Of a DNA stretch of 64,000 nt, positions 5,405 to 53,440 are shown one piece after another (position 1 is the stretch's first letter; every line of letters starts with the position of its first letter). Below the pieces are notes generated by a model that saw nothing but the letters and a program-made list of their open reading frames with translations, had not been told where the DNA came from and searched no databases. Source of the DNA: Sediminispirochaeta smaragdinae DSM 11293. Its GTDB lineage: Bacteria > Spirochaetota > Spirochaetia > DSM-16054 > Sediminispirochaetaceae. The position numbers and the translations under genes were made by a program. The stretch spans positions 1,302,001-1,366,000 of the forward strand of contig NC_014364.1 of assembly GCF_000143985.1 (NCBI RefSeq), in the 5' to 3' direction.

Positions 5405-5430
5405 GTAGATAAAGTGGCCGTGCAAGCCAC

Positions 5431-5459
5431 TTGCAAGCGCGATATATGGATGATAAAAT
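5431..5459 (+). promoter_or_regulatory. Sigma-70-type promoter of the flavin reductase
   Basis: TTGCAA at 5431-5436 and TAAAAT at 5454-5459 are separated by 17 bp. The predicted start, near 5466, falls inside the palindromic operator that follows, as expected for a repressed promoter. Confidence 0.5.
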
Positions 5460-5462
5460 ATC

Positions 5463-5498
5463 GATATATAGTGAATGAGCGTTCACTCACTATATATC
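5463..5498. promoter_or_regulatory. Palindromic operator, probable TetR site
   Basis: A 36-bp near-perfect palindrome: arms GATATATAGTGA and TCACTATATATC enclose a core of the TGAATGA-CG-TTCA type, with only two mismatched base pairs. It covers the predicted transcription start and ends about 30 bp before the reductase ATG. TetR-family proteins bind such sites, and a TetR gene lies at 8141-8728. Confidence 0.65.
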
Positions 5499-5529
5499 AA
5501 TCTTTATAATGAGGGAGTGGAGAAACAAA

Positions 5530-12487: not shown

Positions 12488-12497
12488 CACAGTTCCT

Positions 12498-13523
12498 CTA
12501 TTGTCTCTTTACGTATTTCTGAGCATCAACGGCGACCGCCAAAATGACGATTGCCCCCTTAATGATGTAGAGCATATAAGGGCTTACGCTTATATAGACA
12601 AGACCATAGTTGATAACCTGGAAAATAATTACTCCAATTACAATACCTAGAATATTTCCAACCCCTCCGAGTAACGACACTCCGCCGACGACACAAGCTG
12701 CTATGGCATCAAGCTCGTAGCCGTTTCCAAGATTGTTGGTTGCACTTCCGGTTCTTCCTACTTCGAGCGCGCCGGCAAAGCCATAGAGAAAACCTGCGAT
12801 TAAATAGATAATCAAGATTGTTTTATGGATGTTAACGCCGGACACCTTTGCCGCTTCTTCGTTATTTCCTATTGCAAAAAGGTGCCTGCCAAGTTTTGTT
12901 TTGGTCCATATGAACCACATCAGCACGGCGATGATGGTGGCGTAGATGATCAGGTACGGGATACCGAGTACTTCGCCCTGAGCAAAGTTGGTAAATGAAT
13001 CCTTGAGTGATCCCACTGGCGAGGCGCCGCATACCTGCTCATAGTAGGTTGAAGTGAGCCCGTAAAGGATCATTTGCATTCCCAAAGTTGCAATAAATGC
13101 CGTTACAGATAGTTTTGTCACAACGAGCCCGTTCACCAGGGAGATAAGTCCGCAGATCAGAGTCACAAGAAGCACGGGTACAATCACTGGTATATCAAGC
13201 CCGGGGAAGACAATATTGGGATTATCCAGTACCTGCATCATGGATGCGGAAATTACGGCCGACAGGCCTACAAACCGACCTATCGCAAGATCACATCCTG
13301 CCAGGACGATTATTCCGGCTACCCCCAATGCCAGAATCATTCTTGTTGAAGCCTGGGTAAAAATAAATTTGAAGTTTTTGAATGATAAAAAGGTTGGATC
13401 AATTGCAGTAATAATTATTATAAGGCTGGCCAAAACAATGTAGATGGCATTGTCCATAAGCTTTGCCCGTATCTTTCTTCTTCGCTTGATTTTTTCTATC
13501 TGTTCATTTGCCATTCCATCCAT
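12498..13523 (-). CDS. mglC: Galactoside/ribose ABC transporter permease, MglC-like
   Basis: A 341-residue inner-membrane permease of the BPD_transp_2 family, with about eight to ten hydrophobic segments. The LAGCDLAIGRFVGLSAV region and the late VVGGVSLLGGVGNILG motif are hallmarks of MglC/RbsC permeases. AGGAGG, 11 bases before the ATG, overlaps the end of mglA, 15 bp upstream. It forms the membrane channel for the sugar bound by MglB and energised by MglA. Confidence 0.9.
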   Translation of the reverse strand: MDGMANEQIEKIKRRRKIRAKLMDNAIYIVLASLIIIITAIDPTFLSFKNFKFIFTQASTRMILALGVAGIIVLAGCDLAIGRFVGLSAVISASMMQVLDNPNIVFPGLDIPVIVPVLLVTLICGLISLVNGLVVTKLSVTAFIATLGMQMILYGLTSTYYEQVCGASPVGSLKDSFTNFAQGEVLGIPYLIIYATIIAVLMWFIWTKTKLGRHLFAIGNNEEAAKVSGVNIHKTILIIYLIAGFLYGFAGALEVGRTGSATNNLGNGYELDAIAACVVGGVSLLGGVGNILGIVIGVIIFQVINYGLVYISVSPYMLYIIKGAIVILAVAVDAQKYVKRQ

Positions 13524-13538
13524 GATGACAACAACCTC

Positions 13539-15041
13539 CTATAAATATTTCGCCGCTAACTTGAGAATTTCTTCCTGGTTGGTTTCTTTTGTATTCACTA
13601 TTCCCGCCACATTCCCGTTGCTCATAACCAGTATTTTGTCGGTAACGCCAAGCAACTCCGGCATCTCGGATGAAATCATGACCACCCCCTTGCCTTCGTT
13701 TGCTAATTCAATGATAAGTTGGTAAATTTCGTATTTAGCGCCGACATCTATCCCTCTTGTCGGTTCGTCAAGCAGCAGAATATCCGGAGACGTGAGCATC
13801 CATCTGCCGAAGAGCACCTTCTGTTGGTTGCCACCGGACAGGTCCACCATATGGGTTTCTGCAGACGGTGTTTTTACCTTTAATGCAGTAATCACTTTCT
13901 CGACATCATTCTTGATTTTTCCCTTGTGCAAGACGCCATGCCTGCGGTATCCGTCCATATTTGCTATTGTTATGTTGTCCTTCACACTCAGCCCTGGAAA
14001 AATACCGTTGTACTTTCGTTCCTCGGTAAGCAAAGCAAAACCGTTTTTTATTGAATCCGCAGGAGACTGGTTGTTGCAGAGGCTTCCTCTGAGCTTTATT
14101 TCTCCGGTTTCTCGTTTTCGATAGCCAAAGAGGCCTTCCACAACCTCGGTCCGCATCGACCCTTCAAGTCCTGCAATTCCGAGAATTTCCCCTGCCCTTA
14201 GGGAAAAGGAAACATCTTTTACCAATGGTGAATAGGTTAAACTGAGGTGCGATACCTCCATGAGGACACTGCCTGGTTTATTTATCTTCTTTGGAAAACG
14301 ATTATTGAGTTTGCGGCCTACCATAAGCGTGATGATGTTGCCAATATCAACTTCGGTGATAGGTTCAGTTGCAATCCATTTCCCGTCTCGCATTACCGAA
14401 ACTTCATCGGCGATACTGAAAATTTCTTCAAGCTTATGCGATATATAAATTATTCCGCACCCTTTTTTCCGCAGTTTTTTTATTACCCTGAATAAGTGAG
14501 CCACTTCCTTCTCCGAAAGCGATGAAGTCGGCTCATCCATCACAATTATCCTGGCGTTGTAGGAAGATGCCTTGGCTATCTCCATCATCTGTCGGTCCGA
14601 AACAGAAAGCTTTTCAACCTTGACGAGGGGATCGATATTAATTTCAAGTTCTTCAAAAATTCTTTTGGTCTCTCTGATCATCTTTTCTTCGTCGATAACA
14701 AGGGGGTTTTTCATGGGAAATCGCCCCAGCCACAGGTTGTCGATCACTCTCAGCCTTCCCACCTGGTTCAGCTCCTGGTGGACCATTGTTATCCCATGGT
14801 CCAAGGCCTGTTTTGGATTTTCAAAGCCGACCTTTTTTCCTTCCAACTCGATGGTACCTTCATCGGCGTGATATATTCCAAACAGGCATTTCATTAAAGT
14901 CGATTTGCCGGCCCCATTTTCACCAACGAGGGCATGGACCGTTCCCTGCCGGACCGCCAAATCGACTTTATCCAGAGCCTGTACTCCGGGAAATGACTTG
15001 GAAATTTTCTTAATACGTAGAAGTACAGGATTGCTATCCAT
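13539..15041 (-). CDS. mglA: Galactoside ABC transporter ATP-binding protein, MglA-like
   Basis: Two fused nucleotide-binding domains (500 residues), the standard form for monosaccharide CUT2 transporters. The first domain has Walker A GENGAGKST and Walker B IIVMDEPTSS; the second is marked by LSGGNQQKVLFGRW and LLLDEPTRGIDVGAKYE. The open frame extends to 15101, but that stretch encodes a terminator hairpin. GGAG nine bases before the ATG at 15041 makes MDSNPVLL the likely N-terminus. Expression probably depends on read-through from mglB. Confidence 0.9.
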   Translation of the reverse strand: MDSNPVLLRIKKISKSFPGVQALDKVDLAVRQGTVHALVGENGAGKSTLMKCLFGIYHADEGTIELEGKKVGFENPKQALDHGITMVHQELNQVGRLRVIDNLWLGRFPMKNPLVIDEEKMIRETKRIFEELEINIDPLVKVEKLSVSDRQMMEIAKASSYNARIIVMDEPTSSLSEKEVAHLFRVIKKLRKKGCGIIYISHKLEEIFSIADEVSVMRDGKWIATEPITEVDIGNIITLMVGRKLNNRFPKKINKPGSVLMEVSHLSLTYSPLVKDVSFSLRAGEILGIAGLEGSMRTEVVEGLFGYRKRETGEIKLRGSLCNNQSPADSIKNGFALLTEERKYNGIFPGLSVKDNITIANMDGYRRHGVLHKGKIKNDVEKVITALKVKTPSAETHMVDLSGGNQQKVLFGRWMLTSPDILLLDEPTRGIDVGAKYEIYQLIIELANEGKGVVMISSEMPELLGVTDKILVMSNGNVAGIVNTKETNQEEILKLAAKYL

Positions 15042-15056
15042 AAATTCCGACTCCAT

Positions 15057-15091
15057 AAAAAAGGGTACACATGGAAATGCCATGCGTACCC
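15057..15091 (-). terminator. Intercistronic terminator between mglB and mglA
   Basis: On the minus strand a 12-bp stem (GGGTACGCATGG with CCATGTGTACCC, one wobble pair) is followed directly by a run of six T. It lies between the mglB stop and the mglA start. Partial termination here would give excess binding protein over ATPase and permease. Confidence 0.8.
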
Positions 15092-15104
15092 GAATCATCA
15101 TTGT

Positions 15105-16142
15105 CTATTTATATGCCGCTATGGCATTCTCAAGATTATCAACGGTGGTGATTTCGCAAGCTACTCGTATGTCCTTGCGATCACCAAGGGTATAATCGGT
15201 CCCGTAACAAATATCTCTTCCCTTTGCTGCATTTACGGCCATGGCATATGTTGCCAGCCCAAGAGCCTTCGGGTCATTGAGAATTGTTCCGAGCATCTGG
15301 CCTTTCTTTATAAGCTCAACGGCTTCGGGAAGCCCGTCAACGCCCACTACCGGCATGTACTTTTCGCCGGTGAAATATCCTGCACTCTTGAGGGCTTCAA
15401 CGGCGCCAAGAGCCATTGCATCATTGTTGCAAATAACGAACTCTATGCTGTCACCATGTTTTGCAAGCCAGGTTTCCATGAGCTCTTTGCCCTTTGAAGC
15501 ATCCCACATTCCCGTCTGAAGTTCCAATTGTTCGATACCTATTCCGGCTTCCTTGATGATTTTGGGAGGTTCTGAAGTTCTTACCTCTGCATCCGGATGT
15601 CCGGGTTCTCCCTTGAGCATGACATACTGGATTTTTCCGTCACCGTTCTTGTCCCATTCGGGATGAGTTTTCCATTCATTGACGATCAGGTGGCCTTGCT
15701 GAATCCCGAATTCCGCTGAGGTAATTCCCGCATACCAGCATTTGTCATAACCCATGATGACATCTCTTGCCGGTTCTTTATTGTAGAAGATGATGGGAAG
15801 ACCTGCTTTTTTTGCCTTTTCGCAAACGGTTTTTCCGGCAGCCGGCTCGACCAGATTGACTACCAGACAATCCACACCTTTATTGATATACGTATCGATC
15901 TGATCATTTTGCTTTGCTTGATCGTTCATTGAGTCACAGATCTGATAATCGACTTCTCCGTTTTCTTCGCACGCGGTCTCTATGGCTTTGCGTACAAATG
16001 ACATATAGTTATCGTCGTATTTATATACCGTAATACCTAATTGGGGCTTTGCGTTTCCGGTAGCCTCACTTGACCCATTTGCAAAAACAGCAATAGAGCA
16101 GATCATCAACAGTGCGGAACCGATTGCAATTACCTTCTTCAT
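15105..16142 (-). CDS. mglB: Galactose/glucose-binding periplasmic protein, MglB-like
   Basis: A 345-residue exported binding protein with a signal peptide ending VFANGSSEA. DKNGDGKIQYVMLKGEPGHP closely follows the calcium-loop segment of enterobacterial MglB, and GMWDASKGKELMETW matches the sugar-stacking Trp region. It delivers D-galactose, D-glucose or a galactoside to MglAC. GGGAGGAAAGG stands immediately upstream of the ATG. It is the first gene of the operon, with a promoter and operator at 16216-16265 and a terminator directly downstream. Confidence 0.92.
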   Translation of the reverse strand: MKKVIAIGSALLMICSIAVFANGSSEATGNAKPQLGITVYKYDDNYMSFVRKAIETACEENGEVDYQICDSMNDQAKQNDQIDTYINKGVDCLVVNLVEPAAGKTVCEKAKKAGLPIIFYNKEPARDVIMGYDKCWYAGITSAEFGIQQGHLIVNEWKTHPEWDKNGDGKIQYVMLKGEPGHPDAEVRTSEPPKIIKEAGIGIEQLELQTGMWDASKGKELMETWLAKHGDSIEFVICNNDAMALGAVEALKSAGYFTGEKYMPVVGVDGLPEAVELIKKGQMLGTILNDPKALGLATYAMAVNAAKGRDICYGTDYTLGDRKDIRVACEITTVDNLENAIAAYK

Positions 16143-36820: not shown

Positions 36821-36837
36821 AGCAAACAACATGCCAA
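36821..36837 (-). promoter_or_regulatory. Sigma-54 promoter of tctC
   Basis: The minus strand reads TTGGCATG-TTGT-TTGCT, matching the -24/-12 consensus with correct 10-bp GG-to-GC spacing. Predicted leader about 85 nt. It lies in the 268-bp gap between tctC and the SAF-domain gene. Confidence 0.75.
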
Positions 36838-36934: not shown

Positions 36935-36950
36935 ATTGCATTCGTGCAAT
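36935..36950. promoter_or_regulatory. Probable enhancer site for the PrpR-type activator
   Basis: ATTGCA-TTCG-TGCAAT, a perfect 6-bp inverted repeat with 4-bp spacer, about 98 bp upstream of the tctC sigma-54 promoter. The same TTGCA-N4-TGCAA motif occurs at 38564-38579 beside the activator gene. Confidence 0.6.
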
Positions 36951-38381: not shown

Positions 38382-38418
38382 TGCATCTTCTCCAGGTAGA
38401 AAGTCTTACACATCTAAA

Positions 38419-38435
38419 GCAAATAGAATGCCAAG
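38419..38435 (-). promoter_or_regulatory. Sigma-54 promoter of the SAF-domain dehydrogenase
   Basis: The minus strand reads TTGGCATT-CTAT-TTGCT with correct spacing. The predicted start is about 26 nt before the ATG at 38381. Together with the tctC promoter it points to coregulation by the divergent activator. Confidence 0.75.
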
Positions 38436-38563: not shown

Positions 38564-38579
38564 ATTGCAATAATGCAAC
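38564..38579. promoter_or_regulatory. Probable enhancer site / autoregulatory site of the PrpR-type activator
   Basis: ATTGCA-ATAA-TGCAAC, the same inverted repeat as at 36935-36950, about 130 bp upstream of the dehydrogenase sigma-54 promoter and about 40 bp before the activator start. It could serve both activation and autoregulation. Confidence 0.6.
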
Positions 38580-38620
38580 TATAGATGCATACCTGCAAAC
38601 TGCTTCAAGGGGGAAAAGAT

Positions 38621-40492
38621 TTGATCCGCATTACGTTTATTGTTCCTTACGCATCGATGAAGGGAACCGTTGAAGAGATTTTCTCCCAGCACCCGGAACG
38701 GTCGGTCATCTCGCAGTCCGTCATCATGAGGACTTTTGATGAGATCGATACCCTAAACCTTGATACCGATATTGTTATTGCCAGGGGCTATTCCGCCAAC
38801 CGAATAAAAAAGCTCGGTATTCCATTGATCGACATGACTGTTACCGGTTTCGATATTACCACCGCTTTGAACAGCTGTATCAATCGTTACAGGCCGGAGA
38901 AGATTGCAATCATCGGTCCCCTCAACACGGTTTACGGCATCGACGAGATAAAGAATGTGTTTCCCTGCTGTATCGAAGGATATCAGGTCGATGATCCTGC
39001 CTATCTTCCGGAAACGATCGACAGGGTGATGCAAGAAGGGGCGGAAGCGGTTATTGCGGGACGGACAGGCTATTACCTCTGCCGGGATCGGGGAATCAAC
39101 AGTATCATGATAGAATCGGGGCGTAAAACCATCCTCCAGGCCATTGATGAGGCGGTCCGATCTATTCGATTAATGAGAAGGGAACGGGAGCGAAGCGACA
39201 GGTTCAAGAGCATTATGGATTACTCCTTTGAAGGAATCCTCTCCATTGATCGGGAAGGGGCCGTTGCCGTTGCCAACAACCATGCGCTGAAAGTGTTTCC
39301 AGCCTTGGAAAAGGCGAAAAATCCTCTGGCGGTAGAGAAACTACTTCCGCAAGTGGATTTGAGTGAGGTCCTCCGTTCCGGAAAGAAGATCCTCGGTGAG
39401 TTGGTGCTTATCGGAAAACGGATGTATACCCTCAACTGTGCTCCTGCCGGGGATGCCGGAGCGGTGATCACCTTTTCCAATGTTACCGAGATTCAGGAGA
39501 TGGAGGGAAAGATTCGCACGAAGCTGCATAAGAAGGGTCTGGTGGCAAAGTACAGCTTTGCAGATATCATCGGAAACGGGACGGCCATCGGTGAGGCTGT
39601 AAGGGTCGCACGAAAGTTTAGTCAGGTGGAATCGAACATCTTTATCTTTGGAGAGACGGGAACAGGGAAAGAGCTTTTTGCCCAGAGCATTCACAACGAC
39701 AGCAGAAGGCGCAATCAGCCCTTTGTTGCTATCAACTGTGCAGCCCTTGCCGAGGATCTTTTAGAGAGCGAGTTGTTCGGCTATGTGGACGGCGCCTTCA
39801 CCGGTGCATCCAAGGGAGGGAAGGTCGGCCTTTTCGAGCTGGCCCACAGAGGGACCGTGTTCCTCGATGAGATTGGCGACATTTCTCCCAAGCTGCAGAG
39901 TCGTCTCCTCCGGGTCCTGCAGGAACGGGAAATCATGCGTATCGGCCATGACCAGGTGATTCCCATCGACATTCGCATTATTTCGGCATCGAATAAGGAC
40001 CTTAAGGCCCTTGTCGCCGAAGGAAAATTCCGGGAGGATCTTCTCTACCGACTCAATGTTTTGAAGCTGACGCTTCCTCCCCTTTGTGCCAGGGGTCGGG
40101 ATATCATTGACCTCTGTTACCATTTTATAGAGCAGAATCGCTCGCGACTCCATTCAGTCCTTCGTCGCCTGACCCCGTCGGCCGAACAGGTGATTCTGGA
40201 AAGCGGCTGGCCCGGAAATGTACGGGAACTCTATAATTTTTGTGAACGGCTTTGTGTCCTGTCCGAAGGAGATACCGCAGACCTCAAAGAGGTCGTTTCC
40301 TGTATGGAACAACCCGCCCCCTCCCTGCGGCTGCAGCCGCAGGGAATTTCACTCGCGCAGGTATACGAAACGCGTGAGAAAGAGACCATTGAAAAGGCCC
40401 TTGAGCTATCTTCGAGCAAAAAAGATGCGGCCCGACTGCTTGGTATCGACGCAAGCACCCTGTGGCGAAAGATGAAAAAGCATCATTTGTAG
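38621..40492 (+). CDS. PrpR-type sigma-54-dependent transcriptional activator
   Basis: 623 residues: an N-terminal PrpR_N effector domain, a PAS-like domain (SIMDYSFEGILSIDREG), an AAA+ domain (Walker A GETGTGKE, GAFTGA loop, Walker B GTVFLDEIGD, arginine finger region REDLLYRLNVL) and a C-terminal Fis-type helix-turn-helix (SSSKKDAARLLGIDASTLWRKM). The frame extends to an ATG at 38585, but AAGGGGGAAA before the TTG at 38621 gives the usual family N-terminus. It should activate the divergent dehydrogenase and tct-otn genes in response to a small-molecule ligand. Its 3' end overlaps the Nudix gene by 10 bp. Confidence 0.88.
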   Translation: MIRITFIVPYASMKGTVEEIFSQHPERSVISQSVIMRTFDEIDTLNLDTDIVIARGYSANRIKKLGIPLIDMTVTGFDITTALNSCINRYRPEKIAIIGPLNTVYGIDEIKNVFPCCIEGYQVDDPAYLPETIDRVMQEGAEAVIAGRTGYYLCRDRGINSIMIESGRKTILQAIDEAVRSIRLMRRERERSDRFKSIMDYSFEGILSIDREGAVAVANNHALKVFPALEKAKNPLAVEKLLPQVDLSEVLRSGKKILGELVLIGKRMYTLNCAPAGDAGAVITFSNVTEIQEMEGKIRTKLHKKGLVAKYSFADIIGNGTAIGEAVRVARKFSQVESNIFIFGETGTGKELFAQSIHNDSRRRNQPFVAINCAALAEDLLESELFGYVDGAFTGASKGGKVGLFELAHRGTVFLDEIGDISPKLQSRLLRVLQEREIMRIGHDQVIPIDIRIISASNKDLKALVAEGKFREDLLYRLNVLKLTLPPLCARGRDIIDLCYHFIEQNRSRLHSVLRRLTPSAEQVILESGWPGNVRELYNFCERLCVLSEGDTADLKEVVSCMEQPAPSLRLQPQGISLAQVYETREKETIEKALELSSSKKDAARLLGIDASTLWRKMKKHHL

Positions 40493-43013: not shown

Positions 43014-44843
43014 CTATAAAGGGAGCCATAAAGAAAATTTGCAGCCGTTGGGGAGCAGGTTTTCCACGGTGATAGAACCCTTGTTCTTTTTGATGATGTT
43101 ATAACTGACGGAAAGGCCAAGGCCGATATTTCCACTGTTGGATCCTTTCGTCGAAGTGAAAGGAAGGAATATGTCGTTTGGATTTTCAAGTTTGATACCC
43201 GTTCCATTATCTCTGATGGTGATGCAAGCCTCCGGCTTTCCCCCTTTTTTCATCTCGTGGGCGGTGAGTGCTATGGTACCGTTGCTGCCTAGTGCTTCAA
43301 AACTATTTTTCAGAAGATTAAGAAGAACCTGTTTTATCTCATTTCGGTCGGCAGAGACCAGCAGGGGCCAGTCGTCGGTTTCAAAATGGATCTCAATATG
43401 CTTTGCCTGTGCATTGAAACGGACAAGGTTGATCAGTTCTCTTATGAGAGAGACAATATTGAAAGGCTCTGTTGACAGTTCCCTGTTTTCTGAAAAAGAA
43501 AGAAGGTTCGCCACGATGTTTGCAATGTATTCGAACTGCTCCTCGAGATTGTCGATAAGCTTTTTAGATTCTTGATTTCCCTCCGTTAGCCATTTTAGTG
43601 ATTCGAGATAATTATAGATGATTCCCAAGGGATTATTGATTTCATGGGCAACCCCTGCGGCAAGAAGTCCGAGTGCGGCAAGTTTTTCTGAAAGGATGAG
43701 TTGTTCCCTCATCCTTTCCCGTTCGGTGATATCTTCGAGAATGATGATATATCCTAGAGGGTGAAGACCGTCGAGAACGGGATAGACAATGAAATTCGTT
43801 TGCATATTTTTTCCGTTCACTTTCAGAGGAATATCAAAAAGCATGGTCTCTTTTTTCCTGTGGATGGACTCCTGAATCTTCTCCATGGCCTCTTTATCAC
43901 TACCCTGAAAAAGGCCTTCGATATGAACATCGAAATCGAGTCTGTTGAGGTTGAAAAAATCCCTGGCAGTATCGTTGATTAGCTTTACATCATATTTCGT
44001 ATCAAGAACCAGAAGATTGATGGGAAGACTTTTTAGTATGGCTTCGTTATAACGAAGCAGTTGATAGAATTCACTATTCGAATGCTGCCGGTCCTCTCGT
44101 TCCGACATTTGCGTATAGGCTATACGTATAAGGTTTATTTTGTCGATCCGGTTTGTCTCTTCGCTCAGCAGTAGTTCACCGTGACGGATAATAGAAACCC
44201 TATCTGCTATGTGATAAACATCGTCGATCTGGTGGGTAATAAAAAGGACCGACGATCCCTCGTTGGTTAATTGATGAAGCATAGGTATGATCTTAATCAG
44301 ATTGATCGAAGAGAGTTTTTCAAGGGTTTCGTCAAGGATGAGCAGACGAGGTTTTTTGTACAGTTCCCTGAGAATGGCGACAAGGGCCCTATCTGCCATG
44401 TTCAGATTGGCTGTCCTTGCCAGAGGGTCGAGGCGGAAGCCATGCTGCTTTATATAATTTTGAGCCTCGAGCCGTATTGCTGCGGCATTAAAGAATGTAA
44501 ACAGCCCGCCAATGACATCTTTATTGCCGATGAAAAGATTTTCAGCAACAGTGTACGCCTTTGAAAGCGGTATTCTCTGTTTTACCAGGCAGATGTTGGA
44601 GCGATCGGCCTTTTGATTTACATAGTTTTGCTGAGCGACTCCCTTCATAAAGAAGCTTCCGCTTTTTATTGGAACTTCACCTTTTATCAAAAGCGCCAGC
44701 GAGGATTTTCCTGCACCATGTTCCCCCACCAGTGCATGAATTTCTCCAGGCCTGATGGTGAGTGAAATATCCGAAAGAACGGGCACTTCACCATAGGAGG
44801 CACTGATATGTTCCAGCCGAATCAGATCATCCCTCGATGCCAT
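43014..44843 (-). CDS. ABC ATPase-PAS-histidine kinase fusion protein
   Basis: A single 609-residue frame joining two families. Residues 5-250 are an ABC ATPase of the sugar-transporter (RbsA N-domain) type: Walker A GEHGAGKSS (40-48), Q-loop Gln89, Walker B RLLILDE (166-172), H-loop His204. The signature is LNMADRA instead of LSGGQ, and Walker B continues DET instead of DEP. Residues about 265-375 form a PAS domain. The rest is an NtrB-like kinase: GVAHEINNPLG (His400), N-box around 504-514, DNGTGI (545-550) and GLGLS. No membrane segment is seen. The ATG at 44843 lies inside the end of the NtrC-type gene; the frame also extends to 44897. I infer that it senses the state of a sugar ABC transporter. 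The call on domains is firm, on function speculative. Confidence 0.85.
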   Translation of the reverse strand: MASRDDLIRLEHISASYGEVPVLSDISLTIRPGEIHALVGEHGAGKSSLALLIKGEVPIKSGSFFMKGVAQQNYVNQKADRSNICLVKQRIPLSKAYTVAENLFIGNKDVIGGLFTFFNAAAIRLEAQNYIKQHGFRLDPLARTANLNMADRALVAILRELYKKPRLLILDETLEKLSSINLIKIIPMLHQLTNEGSSVLFITHQIDDVYHIADRVSIIRHGELLLSEETNRIDKINLIRIAYTQMSEREDRQHSNSEFYQLLRYNEAILKSLPINLLVLDTKYDVKLINDTARDFFNLNRLDFDVHIEGLFQGSDKEAMEKIQESIHRKKETMLFDIPLKVNGKNMQTNFIVYPVLDGLHPLGYIIILEDITERERMREQLILSEKLAALGLLAAGVAHEINNPLGIIYNYLESLKWLTEGNQESKKLIDNLEEQFEYIANIVANLLSFSENRELSTEPFNIVSLIRELINLVRFNAQAKHIEIHFETDDWPLLVSADRNEIKQVLLNLLKNSFEALGSNGTIALTAHEMKKGGKPEACITIRDNGTGIKLENPNDIFLPFTSTKGSNSGNIGLGLSVSYNIIKKNKGSITVENLLPNGCKFSLWLPL

Positions 44844-46155
44844 ATCTGAGCAACTTGTTATACAGTGTGCTGCGGCTGATATGAAGGTGCCGTGCACACT
44901 TTGATTTATTGTAATGGAAACGCTGGAGCGTTTTGACTATAATCTCCTTCTCCGACAGCTCAAAAGCCCCCTGCCTCTCCGACGGCAGATTTCGTATGGA
45001 AAGAATGTCGGCAGGCAATTCCTGGATGTGTAGTATCGAATCCGATGTCATGGTGCATGCATAGTGAATACAGTTTCTCAGCTCTCGTACGTTACCTGGC
45101 CAGTGATACGCCAAGAAAAGGTCCTGAACTTCCGAGGTAATTCCCGTGATGGGCTTCTTATGCTCCTTGGAGTAGGACGCAAGAAAATATTCGGTTAAGG
45201 GCACAATATCTTCCCTTCTGTCGCGCAAGGGCGGAATTTTGAGATGGGCGGCCTTGAGCCGGTAATAGAGGTCTTCCCTGAATTTCCCTTGTTCGATTAA
45301 TGTCTCAAGATTTTTATTTGTCGCTGCAATGATATTCACATCGATCTTTATTGTCTTACTGCTTCCGACCTTGCGTATTTCCTGGTTTTGAAGGACCCGA
45401 AGGATCTTAGCCTGAGTAGACAACGACATATCTCCTATTTCGTCCAGAAAAAGCGTATTATTGTGCGCTTTTTCAAAAAGACCGACATGGTCGGAGACGG
45501 CCCCTGTGTAGGCCCCCTTCTCATGACCGAAGAGTTCGTTGTCGAGAAGTCCTTCGGTGAGAGCCGCACAGTTCACCGTCACCATCTCCCGATGACCTCT
45601 GGGCGATCTGAGATGAAGATGCTGAGCGAAAAGCTCTTTTCCTGTTCCGTTTTCACCGGTGATGAGCACCGGCAAGTTTGCCAATGCAAGCTTTTTCATC
45701 TGAAGAAGGAGTGCTTCTATTGCTTTATTTTTGCTGATAATAGGAGGCGCCTGTCTGAGAACCTTTTCCTTGAGTGAAGAACGTTCATTGTCAAGCTCAT
45801 TGAGGCGGGATATGGTAGCAAGCAGCCGTAACAGTTTTTCGAAGCGGATTGGTTTTTGAATGTAATCAAACGCACCATATTTTATTGATTCTACCGCCGT
45901 CTCGATCGTACCATATCCCGTTATCATGATGACCGGAAGTTCCGGTTTTTTTCGTTTTATCTCTTTGAGAAGGTCGATGCCGGAGATGCTTCCGAGCATG
46001 ATGTCGATGAGTGCTGCTTCACAGTGACCGGTTCCAAGAAGTGCCAAGCCCTCTTCGGCATGTGTGCTGTAATGACAATCGATTTGATGGAGGCTAAGGC
46101 TTTGCCTCATGCTTTCGCAATATGCTTCATTATCATCTATCAATACAATTTGCAT
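44827..46155 (-). CDS. NtrC-family sigma-54 response regulator
   Basis: 442 residues: a receiver domain (phospho-acceptor Asp in ALIDIML, Lys in QKPIRF), an AAA+ domain (Walker A GENGTGKE, the accepted GAYTGA variant of the sigma-54 loop, Walker B NTLFLDEIGD) and a Fis-type helix-turn-helix (FHYNKSKCARHLHISRSTLY). It overlaps the fusion kinase by 17 bp, so the two are an obvious pair. The start MQIVLIDD at 46155 was chosen because the promoter at 46194-46222 predicts a start near 46187; an ATG at 46182 is an alternative. Its likely targets are the two sigma-54 promoters at 46305 and 47877. Confidence 0.9.
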   Translation of the reverse strand: MQIVLIDDNEAYCESMRQSLSLHQIDCHYSTHAEEGLALLGTGHCEAALIDIMLGSISGIDLLKEIKRKKPELPVIMITGYGTIETAVESIKYGAFDYIQKPIRFEKLLRLLATISRLNELDNERSSLKEKVLRQAPPIISKNKAIEALLLQMKKLALANLPVLITGENGTGKELFAQHLHLRSPRGHREMVTVNCAALTEGLLDNELFGHEKGAYTGAVSDHVGLFEKAHNNTLFLDEIGDMSLSTQAKILRVLQNQEIRKVGSSKTIKIDVNIIAATNKNLETLIEQGKFREDLYYRLKAAHLKIPPLRDRREDIVPLTEYFLASYSKEHKKPITGITSEVQDLFLAYHWPGNVRELRNCIHYACTMTSDSILHIQELPADILSIRNLPSERQGAFELSEKEIIVKTLQRFHYNKSKCARHLHISRSTLYNKLLRYGIEG

Positions 46156-46184
46156 ACTTCTTTCATCACTCTGTACAGACATAT

Positions 46185-46201
46185 TGTACGAAAATTGTAC
46201 A
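46185..46201. promoter_or_regulatory. Enhancer-like site 1 of the NtrC-type regulator
   Basis: TGTACGAAAATTGTACA, within a TTGTAC-N7-GTACAA inverted repeat (46184-46202). It lies 104 bp upstream of the nucleoside hydrolase sigma-54 promoter and overlaps the -10 box of the regulator's own promoter. It is closely matched by the site at 47767-47783. Confidence 0.65.
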
Positions 46202-46222
46202 ACTCAATACCATGACCGTCAA
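46194..46222 (-). promoter_or_regulatory. Sigma-70-type promoter of the response regulator / ABC-kinase operon
   Basis: Minus-strand TTGACG (46217-46222) and TACAAT (46194-46199) with a 17-bp spacer. The -10 box lies within the palindrome at 46184-46202, suggesting autorepression. Confidence 0.6.
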
Positions 46223-46304
46223 CGAAAAACTTGTTTCGTCCTGTAGATGATTCTAACTTGATATTATGTAATAAAATGGTAGACTCCTGTATTGGTACTC
46301 CTGG

Positions 46305-46321
46305 TTGGTATGTTTTTTGCT
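46305..46321 (+). promoter_or_regulatory. Sigma-54 promoter of the nucleoside hydrolase gene
   Basis: TTGGTATG-TTTT-TTGCT with correct -24/-12 spacing; predicted leader about 34 nt to the ATG at 46367. Confidence 0.75.
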
Positions 46322-46366
46322 ATATGTCTGATGCATGGCATGCAAAATCATAGTAAGGAGTGATCC

Positions 46367-47626
46367 ATGGGCAAATTGAGAAAGCTGATTGCCGCTGTTT
46401 CCTTAGTGGTAGTGTCGGCAGCTGTTTGGGCAAACGGTGGCGGAGAGAGCATGAGCTATGAAACGAGGGATGTGGAGAAGGTGCAGGGCGCACGAAAGGT
46501 AATATTGGATACCGACATGGTGGAACTGTTTGACGACGGCATGGCCATGATCCTTCTTGATCGCTCTCCACGTACAGAACTTCTCGGTGTTACAGTGGTT
46601 TCCGGGAACACACCAATGCCCCGAGGTATGGCAACTGGTGTACGGCAGCTGGAGGCCATTGGTTCTACCGTTCCGCTTTATGCAGGCAGTCGTTACGGAA
46701 TCCGTTCCTGGAGGGCTGAGCCCGAGGTCCTCTCCGCCGAGCTGGCAATAAGTCCTGTCGTCTCGTGGGGCGGATATCTGCGGTCCGCCATCGACCCCGA
46801 AACCTACAACGGTATTGAATTCGATCCCATGGCACGATGGGCGGAACTCTATAAGACGTTATACAATGAAAGCCCTGTTTATCCCTATGTCTACGATACG
46901 GAAAATCCCGATCCTCAAGGAAGAGATGAAGCCGTAGATTTTCTTGTAGACACCGTAAATACGTACCCCGGAGAAGTGACCATTGTGGCTATTGGCCCTC
47001 TTACCAATATCGCCAGAGCCATCATGAGAGATCCATCCTTTCCGTCAAAAGTAAAAGAAATAATCTATATGGGCGGTTCATTCTTTTTGCCGGGCAATTC
47101 CTCTGCGTCGGCCGAATTTAACTGGTGGGCCGATCCCGATGCTGCAAAGATCGCTCTTCGAGCAGCATGGGGGGATCCTGAGTCGGAATCATATAAGCGC
47201 TATGGAAACCAGGTCATTTCCGGTTTGGAGGCAAACCACAATACCGGAGGAATGCCACTTGAGCTCTACAAGAAGATGGTAGCTCAAACCTTCCCAGGCT
47301 TGCAGTCGCTCTTTTATAAGCGGGGTATGGATGATGCGCCGACGAATATTTGGGACCTTTTTGCGGCGGCATATCTGATCGATCCTTCGGTCGTGCTTTC
47401 CTGGAATAATGATCCTCGGCCTGCGGACAATACCCCTCAGCCCATATATGGTGTCTATGTTGATGTGAACGCCGAGATGGGCCCCGATTACGGGAGGAGC
47501 ATCGCCTATGAAAAAGAGCAAGGACCTGTCGGCAGCAAAAAGGCTGCAATACAAAATTTCATCGACGAGGGAAAATTTTGGAATGAAATCGTGTACCCTC
47601 TATTAGTTGATCCAAAAAATAGGTAG
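46367..47626 (+). CDS. Secreted nucleoside hydrolase (IunH family)
   Basis: A 419-residue inosine-uridine-preferring nucleoside hydrolase homologue. The N-terminal signal peptide ends AVWANGGGES, so it is exported. The calcium-binding start motif appears as DTDMVELFDDG, and VTIVAIGPLTNIA and the late EFNWWADPDAA segment match the family. It would split nucleosides outside the cytoplasm into base and ribose. GGAG precedes the ATG. It has its own sigma-54 promoter and terminator, and the sugar ABC operon downstream could import the released ribose or base. Confidence 0.85.
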   Translation: MGKLRKLIAAVSLVVVSAAVWANGGGESMSYETRDVEKVQGARKVILDTDMVELFDDGMAMILLDRSPRTELLGVTVVSGNTPMPRGMATGVRQLEAIGSTVPLYAGSRYGIRSWRAEPEVLSAELAISPVVSWGGYLRSAIDPETYNGIEFDPMARWAELYKTLYNESPVYPYVYDTENPDPQGRDEAVDFLVDTVNTYPGEVTIVAIGPLTNIARAIMRDPSFPSKVKEIIYMGGSFFLPGNSSASAEFNWWADPDAAKIALRAAWGDPESESYKRYGNQVISGLEANHNTGGMPLELYKKMVAQTFPGLQSLFYKRGMDDAPTNIWDLFAAAYLIDPSVVLSWNNDPRPADNTPQPIYGVYVDVNAEMGPDYGRSIAYEKEQGPVGSKKAAIQNFIDEGKFWNEIVYPLLVDPKNR

Positions 47627-47646
47627 CCAGAAGGCTTTCTGTCGGG

Positions 47647-47677
47647 AAAAAGCAGCCCCTCTACGGCTGCTTTTTTT
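47647..47677 (+). terminator. Terminator of the nucleoside hydrolase gene
   Basis: AGCAGCC (47651-47657) pairs with GGCTGCT (47665-47671), followed by a run of T. It separates the nucleoside hydrolase from the ABC operon. Confidence 0.85.
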
Positions 47678-47766
47678 GTCATACTGCCGTTGATAGCACG
47701 CTGCAAGAAGCTGAAAAGAAAGTTGGAGTTTCCTGTAGCGGAAGTCGGCAGAGTGTCTGGACAAAG

Positions 47767-47783
47767 TGTCCTAAAATTGAACA
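47767..47783. promoter_or_regulatory. Enhancer-like site 2 of the NtrC-type regulator
   Basis: TGTCCTAAAATTGAACA matches site 1 at 14 of 17 positions (shared pattern TGT-N-C-N-AAAATTG-N-ACA) and lies 94 bp upstream of the ABC operon sigma-54 promoter. Confidence 0.6.
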
Positions 47784-47876
47784 TATGCCGGTAAGTCTTT
47801 CTGATCTGAATAAAAATTGGTTTTTTAATTTATTCTGTTGAAATAACATATTTTTCTCCCTCATGAAACATTCCGC

Positions 47877-47893
47877 TTGGTACGCTTCTTGCA
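47877..47893 (+). promoter_or_regulatory. Sigma-54 promoter of the sugar ABC operon
   Basis: TTGGTACG-CTTC-TTGCA, a close -24/-12 match with correct spacing. It lies inside an apparent upstream extension of the binding-protein frame, which argues against the earlier start at 47863. Confidence 0.8.
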
Positions 47894-47940: not shown

Positions 47941-48912
47941 ATGAAGAGATGTACAGATGGGAAAACCGGAAAGGTGCTATTTTTGATTCTTGCCGGCTTG
48001 ATGATTATTGCCGCCCCGGTGTTTTCAGGTGGAAAAAAAGAGAGCGGCAGTGATAAGCCGGTTGTCGGATTGGTGATGAAGTCTTTGGCAAATGAGTTTT
48101 TTAAGACCATGGAAGAGGGAGCACGAAAGTTTGCCGAAGAAGACGGAAGCTTCGAGCTGATTCCTGTCGGTATGAATTCCGAAACGGATATCGATACCCA
48201 GGTAAGTGCCATGGAGCGTTTTATCACCACAGGCGTCGATATGATCGTCGTTGCCCCTGCCGATTCCGTCGGCATGGTTAAATCCGTCAAAAAGGCCGTT
48301 GATGCTGGTATAACTGTTGTAAATTTCGACGTTACCTTGGACAAGGATGCACTTGAGGCTGCCGGACTCCCGAGAGATTTTCTTTTTGTCGGCCCGGATA
48401 ATGCCGATGGCGCGGAGATGGTCGGTAATTATCTTGGCGATACCATCGGCAAAGGCGCCAAAGTGATCATTATCGAAGGCAACCCCGGAGCCGACAATGC
48501 AAAACAACGAAAAGAGGGGTTTATGCGCTCGGTTGAAGCGTATAATTTCGACCTGCTTGCATCGAGAACCGCTCACTGGGAAACAGAGGAAGCCAATACG
48601 GTTATGACCAACCTGCTGACAAAGTATCCGGATGTGGAAGGAATCATGTGTGCCAACGATTCCATGGCTGTCGGTGTTGTGAAAGCCTTGGAAGCAGCCG
48701 GCCGGGCAGGAGAAATCAAGGTCGTCGGATTCGATAATATCGGGGCCGTTCAGACCCTCATTAAAGAGGGAAAAGTTCTTGCTAGCATTGATCAATTCGG
48801 TCCTGAGATGGCGGCGAATGCCATTAAGATAGGGTTCAGGATTCTTGGCGGAGAGAAGTTGTCGGGATGGCAAAAGACCCCCATCAAGCTGGTAACGGCA
48901 GAAAATTTATAA
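47941..48912 (+). CDS. Ribose-type periplasmic sugar-binding protein (1)
   Basis: A 323-residue CUT2-class (RbsB-like) binding protein: a signal peptide ending APVFSGGKKESG, then VGLVMKSLANEFFKTMEEGA and the family segments DMIVVAPADS and GIMCANDSMAVG. GAGGAG precedes the ATG at 47941. It is the first gene of a five-gene operon and probably binds ribose or an intact nucleoside released near the cell surface. A hairpin follows it. Its opening LVMKSLANEFF is shared word for word with the second binding protein at 51529. Confidence 0.85.
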   Translation: MKRCTDGKTGKVLFLILAGLMIIAAPVFSGGKKESGSDKPVVGLVMKSLANEFFKTMEEGARKFAEEDGSFELIPVGMNSETDIDTQVSAMERFITTGVDMIVVAPADSVGMVKSVKKAVDAGITVVNFDVTLDKDALEAAGLPRDFLFVGPDNADGAEMVGNYLGDTIGKGAKVIIIEGNPGADNAKQRKEGFMRSVEAYNFDLLASRTAHWETEEANTVMTNLLTKYPDVEGIMCANDSMAVGVVKALEAAGRAGEIKVVGFDNIGAVQTLIKEGKVLASIDQFGPEMAANAIKIGFRILGGEKLSGWQKTPIKLVTAENL

Positions 48913-48973: not shown

Positions 48974-50509
48974 GTGAGCCCCAAAACAATTGTGGCATTG
49001 AAAGGTGTATCGGTCCAGTTTCCCGGTGTCAAAGCCCTGGACAGGGTCGATCTTGATATCTATAACGGAGAGATCCATGTCCTGTTGGGAGAGAACGGAG
49101 CGGGAAAGTCCACTCTGGTAAAGATACTCTGCGGTATATATAAGCCGTCCGAAGGTGAAATCTTTTTCAGCGGTGAGAGGTATGAACCTAAAGGCACATT
49201 GGATGCCATTAAAAGCGGTATCCGCGTTGTGTATCAGGAGTTCAATCTTTTGCCCTATCTTTCCATTGCAGAGAACATCTTTTTTGAGCAACTACCGAAA
49301 AAGCATGGTTTTGTACAATATAAGGTTCTTATGGCAAAGGCCGCCGAACTGCTTAACGAGGTAGGTCTGGGATCGATTTCTCCTAGAACACCTGTTGAGC
49401 AACTCGGAGTGGCCCAGAAACAACTTGTTGAAATTTGTAAGGCCCTTTCAGCGGAAAGTAAACTATTGATTCTTGACGAACCTACAGCGACCCTTATGCC
49501 GGAGGAGATCGAAAACCTTTTTTCTCTTATTAGAAAACTGAAGGAGAAGGGGGTTTCCGTTATCTATATTTCTCACCGTTTGAAAGAGGTTTTCGAGATC
49601 GGAGACAGAATCACCGTACTTCGAAACGGCTCTCTCGTTGGAACCCACCGTGCCGGGGAACTGGACATACCAGGTATCGTAAAAATGATGGTCGGGAAAG
49701 AGATGGCCTCCGAATATCCCTTTGACGCAGCCGTGCATCCTGGAACCTCCTTTTTTTCGGTAAGAAACCTTCGGTACAGGGGTAATCAGCATTCCGTTGA
49801 TTTTGATCTTCGCCGGGGAGAGATACTCGGTGTTGCAGGGCTCGTTGGGTCGGGACGAACAGAAACCATGCGTGCACTTTATGGCGCTGACAAGCGGGAT
49901 TCCGGCAGCGTGACTCTCAATGGTCGGGAGCTTTCTGTTTCGTCACCGAAAGATGCCGTTAAAAATGGAATTTGTCTTTTGACTGAAGATCGAAAAAGCC
50001 AGGGTCTTGTCCTAGAAATGAGCTGTACCGAGAACATAACGATTACAAACCTGGGGGATGTCTCTTCACATGGATTGTTGAAAAAAGAAAAGGAAGCCGA
50101 GGTAAGTCGTTCATTGATTAAAAAACTTGGCATACGAACAACATCGGAGAGGACAACCGTCAAAAATCTTTCAGGTGGAAATCAACAAAAAATTGTGATT
50201 GCCAAATGGCTGTACAGAAACGCGGAGGTTTTGATTTTTGACGAACCGACCAGAGGCATAGACGTGGGGGCCAAATATGAAATCTATCTTCTGTTGTGGA
50301 AACTTGCTGCGGAAGGAAAAGGGATTATTGTAATCTCTTCAGATCTTCCGGAGATTATGGGTATTTGTCATCGCATGTTGATTTTCTCAAATGGAAAAAT
50401 CACCGGAGAGTTGAAACGAAAGGAATTCAGTCAGGAGCGGATTCTCTCGCTTTCATATGCTGAATATCTGAACCAAAGCAAGGAGACAGAGGAACGAAGG
50501 GATGGGTGA
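48974..50509 (+). CDS. Sugar ABC transporter ATP-binding protein (RbsA/MglA-like)
   Basis: A 511-residue double-domain CUT2 ATPase. Domain 1 has GENGAGKST, LGVAQKQLVEICKAL and LLILDEPTATL; domain 2 has LSGGNQQKIVIAKWL and LIFDEPTRGIDVGAKYE. It starts at GTG behind AAGGAGAAAA. It is the only conventional ATPase for the two permeases in the operon, so either it serves both or the ABC module of the kinase at 43014 contacts one of them. Confidence 0.92.
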   Translation: MSPKTIVALKGVSVQFPGVKALDRVDLDIYNGEIHVLLGENGAGKSTLVKILCGIYKPSEGEIFFSGERYEPKGTLDAIKSGIRVVYQEFNLLPYLSIAENIFFEQLPKKHGFVQYKVLMAKAAELLNEVGLGSISPRTPVEQLGVAQKQLVEICKALSAESKLLILDEPTATLMPEEIENLFSLIRKLKEKGVSVIYISHRLKEVFEIGDRITVLRNGSLVGTHRAGELDIPGIVKMMVGKEMASEYPFDAAVHPGTSFFSVRNLRYRGNQHSVDFDLRRGEILGVAGLVGSGRTETMRALYGADKRDSGSVTLNGRELSVSSPKDAVKNGICLLTEDRKSQGLVLEMSCTENITITNLGDVSSHGLLKKEKEAEVSRSLIKKLGIRTTSERTTVKNLSGGNQQKIVIAKWLYRNAEVLIFDEPTRGIDVGAKYEIYLLLWKLAAEGKGIIVISSDLPEIMGICHRMLIFSNGKITGELKRKEFSQERILSLSYAEYLNQSKETEERRDG

Positions 50510-51488
50510 CATGAAGTTTAAAGCAAACATGAATTATCTTCTCAGCGAAGGGGGTATCGGCATTATTTTGGTACTTTTGTTTCTTATTTTTGCCGTGACT
50601 ACCCCCCATTTTGCAAGTTTTCAGAATATTTCAAATATTTTTACCCAGATAAGTATCAATACCATCATCTCTGTCGGTATGACCTTTGTTATTCTGTTGG
50701 GTGGTATCGATCTTTCGGTTGGATCGCTCCTCGCACTTTGTTCTGTCGCGGCGGGCATGGTCATGAGTAATGGAGAGCTTTCTCCTGGTTTCTCCATTTT
50801 TAGTGCTGTTTTCTTGAGTATCGTTATAGGTATGTTTTTCGGGCTTGCAAACGGAGCAATTTCCGAGAAATGGAAAATCCATTCCTTTATCGTGACTCTC
50901 GGAATGCTGAATATAACAAGAGGAATGGCCCTTCAAGTCAGTAATTCGCGGACCTTTTTTGATTTTCCCGCCGGTTTCAACAGTTTTGGGAATATAAATA
51001 TTGTTGGGCTTCCCATTATTTTCGTAATTGCTCTCCTACTTGTTATTTTGGGGCAGGTAGTACTTACCCGGACTGTTTTTGGCCGCATGCTTATTGCTAT
51101 TGGGAACAATGAGGAGTCTGTTCGGCTTTCAGGGCATAATACCGCGTTGTACAAGGTACTTGCCTTTGTCATTTGTGGCGCAAGTGTCGGTATTGCCGCG
51201 ATTATGTATATGCTGCGTCTTAATATAGCCAGTCCTATTTTAGGGGTGGGCTTCGAGCTGAATGCTATTGCGGCCGTTGTCATCGGTGGGACCAGTATGA
51301 ACGGCGGGAAGGGATCGCTTCTCGGGACCTTCCTCGGTGCTTGTATCATGGGTGTGTTGAATAACGGGCTTTTGCTGATCGGACTTGGTGACTTTGCCAG
51401 ACAGATTGTGACGGGTCTTATCATTATTCTTGCTGTCATTCTTGATCGGTATCGAAACAGTTTTTCTGCAAGGTTAAGGGAGGCATAG
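50502..51488 (+). CDS. Sugar ABC transporter permease (1), RbsC-like
   Basis: A 328-residue permease of the BPD_transp_2 family with LLGGIDLSVGSLLALCSV and VVIGGTSMNGGKGSLLG motifs and multiple membrane segments. It overlaps the ATPase gene by 8 bp. An in-frame ATG at 50511 is an alternative start. Together with binding protein 1 and the ATPase it forms a complete ribose-type importer. Confidence 0.9.
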   Translation: MGDMKFKANMNYLLSEGGIGIILVLLFLIFAVTTPHFASFQNISNIFTQISINTIISVGMTFVILLGGIDLSVGSLLALCSVAAGMVMSNGELSPGFSIFSAVFLSIVIGMFFGLANGAISEKWKIHSFIVTLGMLNITRGMALQVSNSRTFFDFPAGFNSFGNINIVGLPIIFVIALLLVILGQVVLTRTVFGRMLIAIGNNEESVRLSGHNTALYKVLAFVICGASVGIAAIMYMLRLNIASPILGVGFELNAIAAVVIGGTSMNGGKGSLLGTFLGACIMGVLNNGLLLIGLGDFARQIVTGLIIILAVILDRYRNSFSARLREA

Positions 51489-51528: not shown

Positions 51529-52479
51529 ATGACAAAACAGCTCAAGAGTACTGCCGTTCTTATTTTTCTTATTATCGTGGCCTTGTTTGCAATAGGTCGG
51601 GTTCATCTACGGGAAGGCCGACCTCACAGGGTAACCGTGGCACTTGTTATGAAGTCTCTTGCCAATGAGTTTTTTTTGACGATGGAGCAGGGGGCGCGTG
51701 ATCACCATATGAATAATGCAGAACGTTACGATCTCCTGATCTATGGCATCAAGGATGAGCAGGCGGTAAGCCAGCAGATTCATATTGTCGAACAGCTGAT
51801 GGCAATTGATGTAGATGCCATCATTATCGCACCTGCCGACTCAAAGGCCTTGGTCCCTGTTTGTCAAAGGGCGATGGCGTCCGGGGTTGCCATAGTCAAC
51901 ATAGACAATAAATTTGATGCGACGGTCATTGCGGAACGCGGCTTGCATGTTCCTTTTGTCGGTCCTGATAATTATCAAGGGGCCAAGGCGGCAGGAGATT
52001 ATCTTGCCGATCATCTGTCCTCCGGAAACCAGGTTGCCATCATTGAGGGAATCCCTTCTGCCTATAACTCTCAGCAGCGTTGTCTTGGCTTCAGAAAGGC
52101 TATGGACGACGCCGGAATAATGATAGTCGATACCAGGCCGGCACTGTGGGAGATGGACAGGGCGTATACTACGGTTATTTCAATCCTTAACGAACATCGG
52201 AATGTGCGAGCCCTACTCTGTGCAAACGATAATATGGCTCTTGGAGCTGCAGCAGCGGTAAAGGCTGCTTCAAAAAGAAATTCAATGTACATCATCGGTT
52301 TCGATAATATCTCAGCGGTAAATAATGAGTTGAAAAAGGGAGATATTCTTGCCACGGTAGATCAGCATGCTGCTCTGATAGCGGTGAATGGTATTGAGAT
52401 GGCTCTCAGCATGCTTAATGGTGAGGATGTTGATTTGATATGTACAACACCCGTTGAACTGGTAACTGCCTATGAATAA
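51529..52479 (+). CDS. Ribose-type sugar-binding protein (2), membrane-tethered
   Basis: A 316-residue paralogue of binding protein 1 (VALVMKSLANEFFLTMEQGA, DAIIIAPADSKAL, ALLCANDNMALGAAA). The N-terminal hydrophobic segment (residues 8-24) has no lipobox or clear signal-peptidase site, so it may stay anchored as an uncleaved membrane protein. The next permease gene overlaps its end by 8 bp, making a second binding protein-permease pair without an ATPase. A tethered binding protein could act as the sensing subunit for the ABC-kinase fusion; this is inference. Confidence 0.8.
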   Translation: MTKQLKSTAVLIFLIIVALFAIGRVHLREGRPHRVTVALVMKSLANEFFLTMEQGARDHHMNNAERYDLLIYGIKDEQAVSQQIHIVEQLMAIDVDAIIIAPADSKALVPVCQRAMASGVAIVNIDNKFDATVIAERGLHVPFVGPDNYQGAKAAGDYLADHLSSGNQVAIIEGIPSAYNSQQRCLGFRKAMDDAGIMIVDTRPALWEMDRAYTTVISILNEHRNVRALLCANDNMALGAAAAVKAASKRNSMYIIGFDNISAVNNELKKGDILATVDQHAALIAVNGIEMALSMLNGEDVDLICTTPVELVTAYE

Positions 52480-53440
52480 GTTTGTTGCATTCTTCAAATC
52501 GAAATTTCGAAGTATCGCCGGTGAAATTGATAATGTGAGCGGCCTTTTGTTGGCACTTTGTGCCCTCATTTTGTTTTTTTCCCTGCGTAGCGACCATTTT
52601 CTTTCCGAAAAAACTTTGGCCACGATTGCCAATCAAATTCCCGTGCAAATGGTACTTGCGGTAGGTATGACCTATGTACTTATCATCGCCGGGATAGATC
52701 TTTCTATCGGATCGGTTTTGGCCCTGTGCAGTACAGTACTCAGTCTCTTACTCATACGCTTTCATATGCCGCTACCGGTTGCACTCCTTTTGACGACTCT
52801 GACGGGCATCTGTGCCGGTTTTATCAACGGTCTTCTTTCTGCCTGGCTCTCGATACCAAGCTTTATCGTTACTCTTGGTATGATGGAAATTGCACGGGGC
52901 CTTGCCTATATCCTTTCGGATTCGCGCACGATCTATATCGGAACCGGGATAGCCTGTTTTGCGGCTTCTCTCTGGGGTGGTATTTCCGTAGCCTTTCTTA
53001 TTGCCATCGCCATATCGGTAGTCGGCCAACTCCTTCTAAAATATACCGTCTTGGGGACTTATTTATCGGGAATAGGAACAAAGGCGTCGGATATGCCTTT
53101 GTCCGATGCCTTGATTCGCAAAATAAAGATTTTTGTTTTTTCGATAATGGGAATGCTGGTTGCGATTGCCTCGATGTTTCATACGGCAAAACTCGAAGCA
53201 GCCGATCCCAATGCCGGTTCAGGGCTGGAACTCCAAGTCATTGCTTCGGTGGTGATCGGCGGTACAAGTCTTTTAGGTGGCAAAGGATCGGTGGTCAATT
53301 CGATGTTCGGTGTTCTTATCATGGCAGTTTTGCAGACCGGTCTTGCACAGCTAGGGGTTGATGATCCCCTTAAGCAGCTGATAACCGGTCTGCTCATCAT
53401 CATTGCGCTGCTCTTGGATCGATACCGGGAACAGCCATGA
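52472..53440 (+). CDS. Sugar ABC transporter permease (2), RbsC-like
   Basis: A 322-residue BPD_transp_2 permease with IIAGIDLSIGSVLALCST and VVIGGTSLLGGKGSVVN, a paralogue of permease 1. It is coupled to binding protein 2 by overlap and is the last gene of the operon, ending 8 bp from the convergent LolA-like gene. No ATPase follows, so it must share the operon ATPase or interact with another ABC module. Confidence 0.9.
   Translation: MNKFVAFFKSKFRSIAGEIDNVSGLLLALCALILFFSLRSDHFLSEKTLATIANQIPVQMVLAVGMTYVLIIAGIDLSIGSVLALCSTVLSLLLIRFHMPLPVALLLTTLTGICAGFINGLLSAWLSIPSFIVTLGMMEIARGLAYILSDSRTIYIGTGIACFAASLWGGISVAFLIAIAISVVGQLLLKYTVLGTYLSGIGTKASDMPLSDALIRKIKIFVFSIMGMLVAIASMFHTAKLEAADPNAGSGLELQVIASVVIGGTSLLGGKGSVVNSMFGVLIMAVLQTGLAQLGVDDPLKQLITGLLIIIALLLDRYREQP

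Follow-up and report, generated by a model that had tools for sequence, protein, structure and literature searches.

How transport activity feeds back on bacterial gene expression is understood in few systems. Among the described systems closest to the locus reported here, NtrB/NtrC and AtoS/AtoC combine a HisKA kinase and a receiver-AAA+-Fis regulator with sigma-54 promoters, whose inverted-repeat enhancers lie near -100 and frequently come in tandem, some three helical turns apart. The upstream activator sequence (UAS) of NifA has the form TGT-N10-ACA (PMC6296734). CuaD with the two-component genes beside it (PMC10384115) and AgtSR (PMC11113362) represent solute-binding-protein-linked kinases for ABC importers, and BceS is a kinase coupled to the ABC transporter BceAB (PMC3023708). 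We analysed a 64,000-nucleotide stretch of DNA (the window; bases 1302001-1366000 of a single 4,653,970-base contig) from Spirochaeta (now Sediminispirochaeta) smaragdinae, an obligate halophile, strict anaerobe and ribose user (PMC3035371). Judging from its sequence, we consider it highly probable that the window carries a self-contained NtrC-type two-component regulon, with two enhancer sites (UAS1 and UAS2); its organisation also suggests autoregulation and a kinase that may read an importer.

The two-component pair is encoded on the minus strand. The response regulator (44827..46155; Pfam and ORF evidence) has receiver, sigma-54 AAA+ and Fis HTH domains, with PF00072, PF00158 and PF02954 all above cut-off, and its ORF translation contains the GAYTGA sigma-54 loop motif as a GAFTGA variant. 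A start at 46182 is possible, and 46155 is likelier. The gene is adjacent to the predicted regulatory sites, as originally proposed, is of the NtrC type, and begins 30 bp from UAS1. A HisKA/HATPase kinase gene (43014..44897, minus strand) adjoins it, and rpoN is present in the genome. On the plus strand follow a nucleoside hydrolase (IU_nuc_hydro, 46367..47626; Pfam) with a signal-peptide-like N-terminus by hydropathy, and an ABC operon identified by Pfam and NCBIfam: an RbsB-type periplasmic binding protein (47941..48912), an RbsA-type double-NBD ATPase (48974..50509), an RbsC-type permease (50502..51488), a second RbsB-type binding protein (51529..52479) and a second RbsC-type permease (52472..53440). 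The operon thus has a second binding protein and permease (51529-53440) yet a single ATPase gene, and the two permeases may share one ATPase.

The original prediction placed a sigma-54 promoter and a shared 17-bp enhancer-like motif ahead of both the hydrolase gene and the ABC operon, and all four elements were found on the plus strand at the positions claimed. The hydrolase promoter TTGGTATGTTTTTTGCT (46305-46321; TTGGTATG-N4-TTGCT) and the ABC operon promoter TTGGTACGCTTCTTGCA (47877-47893; TTGGTACG-N4-TTGCA) both satisfy the sigma-54 consensus TGGYAYG-N4-TTGCW. UAS1 (TGTACGAAAATTGTACA, 46185-46201) and UAS2 (TGTCCTAAAATTGAACA, 47767-47783) agree at 14 of 17 positions and end 104 and 94 bp before their respective promoters start, again as predicted. 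With up to one mismatch, the window holds five -24/-12-like sites against 0.49 expected; the stricter TTGGYAYG-N4-TTGCW occurs at seven sites genome-wide, two of them at this locus, and its reversed control pattern at none. An intrinsic terminator-like hairpin (GCAGCC-N7-GGCTGC-T7, 47652-47677, plus strand), found by eye, absent from the list of the consensus scan and kept in the sister species (its kinase 97% identical), splits the two plus-strand units, so the hydrolase gene and the ABC operon would have separate promoters.

UAS1 is contained in a 19-bp repeat, TTGTAC-N7-GTACAA (46184-46202), and passes a strict inverted-repeat test; UAS2 is an imperfect repeat that fails it and appears to be a weaker version of the same type of site. 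An inverted-repeat element some 80-150 bp upstream of the -24/-12 element is therefore present as UAS1 and, in imperfect form, as UAS2. A weak candidate for a degenerate second site, TGTAGCGGAAGTCGGCA (47734-47750, plus strand), lies 33 bp upstream of UAS2 within a block identical in the sister species, and inspection by eye found no second UAS 31 bp from UAS1.

What the original prediction overlooked is that UAS1 overlaps the -10 box of the regulator gene itself. The regulator and kinase genes have a sigma-70-like promoter (TTGACG-N17-TACAAT, 46194-46222, minus strand; a consensus match only) whose TACAAT falls within UAS1. Because UAS1 covers this -10 box, bound regulator should limit its own synthesis, which suggests autoregulation through UAS1. 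The same overlap, together with UAS1 being the more perfect repeat of the two, could also mean that UAS1 is mainly a repressor or autoregulator site for the sigma-70 promoter and that only UAS2 acts as an enhancer. However, a near-consensus sigma-54 promoter lies 120 bp downstream of UAS1, and there are other loci whose transporter promoter is served by no repeat but that in the divergent gap. We regard a mainly repressive UAS1 as very unlikely and favour a role for both sites in activation.

Genome-wide, the strict 17-bp motif occurs at only two sites in 4.65 Mb, both upstream of sigma-54 promoters, with a -24/-12 element at 120 and 110 bp. Allowing up to one mismatch raises the count to four sites, and a search for the motif combined with a -24/-12 element paired only the window sites with a sigma-54 promoter; the motif is thus neither common nor unlinked to such promoters. 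Of the non-window sites with up to one mismatch, one lies where an ATPase-like gene begins, with other CUT2 genes nearby, and the other falls inside a coding region. Both, along with five relaxed sites, were rejected as further regulon members, since none of them has a -24/-12 element at 260 bp or less. Genome-wide, the relaxed motif does not outnumber its reversed control. In the sister species both -24/-12 promoters and UAS2 are 100% conserved, UAS2 being invariant though the surrounding intergenic region is 86% identical, and UAS1 differs at 2 of 17 positions, both of them N positions of TGT-N-C-N-AAAATTG-N-ACA. The restriction of the strict motif to these two sigma-54 promoters supports the compact two-promoter regulon that had been predicted from the sequence.

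A second two-promoter sigma-54 set lies about 8 kb away, beside a PrpR_N-type activator EBP gene (38585-40492, plus strand). Its -24/-12 sites (36821-36837 and 38418-38434) are on the minus strand, with TTGCA-N4-TGCAA sites at 36936-36949 and 38565-38578, approximately 99 and 131 bp upstream of them. This pattern occurs exactly twice in the window and four times in the genome, the other two occurrences being without a -24/-12 element.

Also overlooked was the fusion of the sensor kinase to an ABC ATPase. Its N-terminal part is an ABC_tran domain (E = 1e-19) of RbsA type, spanning about residues 22-260; a PAS-like domain separates this from C-terminal HisKA and HATPase_c domains (Pfam, NCBIfam, alignment). 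Below equivalog cut-offs, the best NCBIfam matches of the N-terminal part are to the first NBD of LsrA/YtfR/XylG/RbsA-type importers, and the remainder is nearest to AtoS and ZraS. In a Foldseek search with an AlphaFold model (mean pLDDT 78.9), one half of the protein matched PAS-kinase structures and the other half matched transporter NBDs. Unlike an RbsA-type transporter ATPase, the kinase has a single NBD-like domain. Hydropathy analysis gave no clear transmembrane segment, with one 19-residue window barely above 1.6, in the PAS strand region.

A narrow profile found full-length relatives of this kinase in 16 of the 393 genomes sampled from the phylum, and a broader profile found them in many more genomes of the class. 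Relatives also occur in contigs labelled Planctomycetota and Acidobacteria, some of which may be binning errors. A search of the genome to which the window belongs gave no second full-length copy, tblastn against plasmids gave no record covering 80% of the query, and the literature searched, the coverage of which was incomplete, chiefly for subscription papers, contained no description of the fusion family. Of 92 ABC-kinase loci, 84 have the regulator gene next to the kinase gene and on its strand, and 75 have CUT2 sugar-transporter genes on the stretch examined; the relevant gaps contain 87 strong -24/-12 sites, spread over 72 loci. The sister species has a second ABC-kinase/regulator pair (L042:7010-10515), about 32% identical, with its own CUT2 operon, a sigma-54 promoter (TTGGTACGGATTCTGCT) and a repeat (TGTGGAAAAAATGCCACA). 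On another single contig (L101), two pairs (4614-7830 and 12170-15300) flank CUT2 operons within 11 kb, an arrangement that suggests local duplication.

We then compared the gaps of these loci for repeats of the form TGT-N11/12-ACA, 30-220 bp upstream of a promoter, in which two or more of three additional base pairs are present. In a first set, such a repeat was found upstream of 20 of 46 promoters against 0.96 expected from shuffles, and at none of 34 sigma-54-like sites inside genes. As the rule had been partly shaped on this set, after the held-out lines had been viewed, it was applied unchanged to 57 fresh loci, where 14 of 41 promoters carried the repeat against 0.88 expected. Overall, 34 of 87 comparable promoters pass. 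A repeat is likewise present at six of the 53 'control' sites in the fresh set; at least one of the six is a further promoter of this type, in a locus (L259) where two sigma-54 promoters (935 and 9071, both plus strand) have mutually matching repeats (TGTATAAGAATTATACA and TGTATAATAAGTATACA), which appears to be the same two-promoter compact-regulon design as in the window. The orthologous transporter locus L182 carries TGTTCATATTCTGGACA 144 bp upstream. Repeats are often paired at a spacing of about 31 bp: a second repeat is spaced 30-34 bp from the first in 17 of 35 pairs, equivalent to three helical turns, and three pairs are at 22 bp, both spacings being whole turns. On this comparison, the 17-mer of the original prediction is a local form of an inverted repeat, TGT-N11/12-ACA, that is shared across the family, a point which that prediction had overlooked.

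The sequence within the repeat varies with the regulator. Regulators with the recognition helix IHRKTLYN go with an 18-bp TGTGCA...TGCACA, SRNTLYLK with TGTCCT...AGGACA, SRATLYNK with TGTC[TG]A and SRTTLYSK with TGTTCA...TGAACA. A fixed family-wide consensus, TGTGCA-N3..7-TGCACA, was rejected as it fits one subfamily only (p<0.05 in 6 of 23 seen and 5 of 23 held-out lines). Covariation of helix and repeat was significant over all pairs (partial Mantel p = 0.0045), with p = 0.10 among regulators less than 50% identical and 0.46 below 42%; a strict recognition code is not sustained, the signal being lost among distant regulators. That repeat type tracks the recognition helix supports the regulator as the probable binder, with shared descent explaining part of the pattern.

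These comparisons bear on whether the 17-bp motifs belong to the adjacent regulator at all. They could be chance matches or the sites of another regulator, with real -24/-12 promoters served by a different EBP: the genome encodes 12 full-length EBPs, UAS2 is imperfect, and a 14/17 match was also reached in 9 of 300 Markov shuffles of both upstream regions (3%), so that the shared 17-mer alone is marginal evidence and the case rests on comparison across loci. Against this, the regulator is adjacent, the motif is unique in the genome, and related loci show the same class of repeat at the same distance with the same kind of regulator. We consider chance or a different EBP very unlikely. The regulator, rpoN, the linkage of motif to promoter and the above-chance recurrence in related loci instead bear out the NtrC-type activation geometry first proposed, and, on the sequence features, a regulon of two promoters under NtrC-type control is very likely.

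In the mechanism that we infer, the regulator (44827-46155) would bind the inverted repeats UAS1 and UAS2 as a dimer, and phosphorylation by the neighbouring kinase would lead to its oligomerisation. The oligomer would then, through DNA looping, touch sigma-54 polymerase at both -24/-12 promoters, switching on the secreted nucleoside hydrolase and the RbsBAC-like importer. Regulator on UAS1 would act on two divergent units at once and limit its own synthesis. The importer plausibly takes up ribose freed from nucleosides, making the system one of nucleoside-to-ribose scavenging; ribose as the substrate is a guess, because the best NCBIfam matches of the transporter parts fall below equivalog cut-offs. 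In the kinase, which is predicted to be cytoplasmic, the RbsA-like ABC ATPase domain would replace a periplasmic sensor.

What this domain reads can be approached through its residues. Among 91 fusion ABC domains, the Walker A lysine and Walker B aspartate are retained in 89 and the Q-loop glutamine in 88, whereas the H-loop histidine is absent in 32 and the catalytic glutamate in 9. All of these residues are retained in 65 true importer NBD1 domains; the catalytic set is incomplete in 35 of 91 relatives and complete in the window kinase. Because the Walker residues outlast the H-loop histidine and catalytic glutamate, nucleotide binding appears to be kept more than hydrolysis, a pattern compatible with a domain that has to bind nucleotide, and perhaps also a permease, but need not always hydrolyse. 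It would also suit a cytoplasmic ATP or nucleotide sensor, or a dimerisation module, in a system that responds to energy state or to an intracellular ligand, perhaps by way of the PAS-like domain present in the kinase. However, a pure energy sensor needs no linkage to a single transporter class such as that in 75 of the 92 loci, and the well-retained Q-loop glutamine lies beside the permease-contact surface; we hold this sensor or dimerisation role to be possible, on the doubtful side. That the ABC domain reads the state of its partner importer, through permease docking, or ATP/transport status, we place just short of even probability. On the same sequence evidence, we tentatively propose a widespread and apparently undescribed class of kinase in which the ATPase domain of an importer has been turned into an input. 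Such a kinase would dock on the permease like a spare ATPase subunit and report transport activity to the NtrC-type regulator that controls that importer through sigma-54.

A kinase with an importer-type ATPase is tied genomically to an importer, sigma-54 promoters and enhancers in scores of loci, mostly spirochaete with some from other phyla, and these loci make direct coupling of transport to transcription testable. They also offer a naturally occurring set of regulator helices paired with enhancers, from which the DNA code of Fis-type activators might be read.

By the features tested, the window system is NtrC-type with sigma-54 promoters, and is neither AtoSC, nor NifA, nor a system with a periplasm-sensing kinase. 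With NtrB/NtrC and AtoS/AtoC it shares regulator architecture, kinase type, promoters and enhancer arrangement; unlike in those systems, the input of the kinase is an ABC ATPase domain, and the NCBIfam scores fall well below the equivalog cut-offs for AtoS (215 vs 646 bits) and AtoC (399 vs 714). The TGT/ACA inverted repeat upstream of -24/-12 promoters is shared with the NifA UAS, but the spacing here is N11 or N12 with extra paired bases, and the regulator has a receiver domain and lacks the NifA input domain, placing it outside the NifA UAS class. As in the CuaD and AgtSR type, the two-component genes adjoin the importer that they presumably serve. Kinases of that type are believed to sense extracellular signals, whereas the window kinase, with no clear transmembrane segment, does not fit a periplasm-sensing, solute-binding-protein-linked kinase, and the part fused to it is of the importer's cytoplasmic ATPase type. 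BceS-BceAB likewise couples a kinase to an ABC transporter, but BceS interacts with a separate transporter and uses another class of response regulator, whereas here the ATPase-like domain is fused to the kinase itself and the predicted output is through sigma-54.
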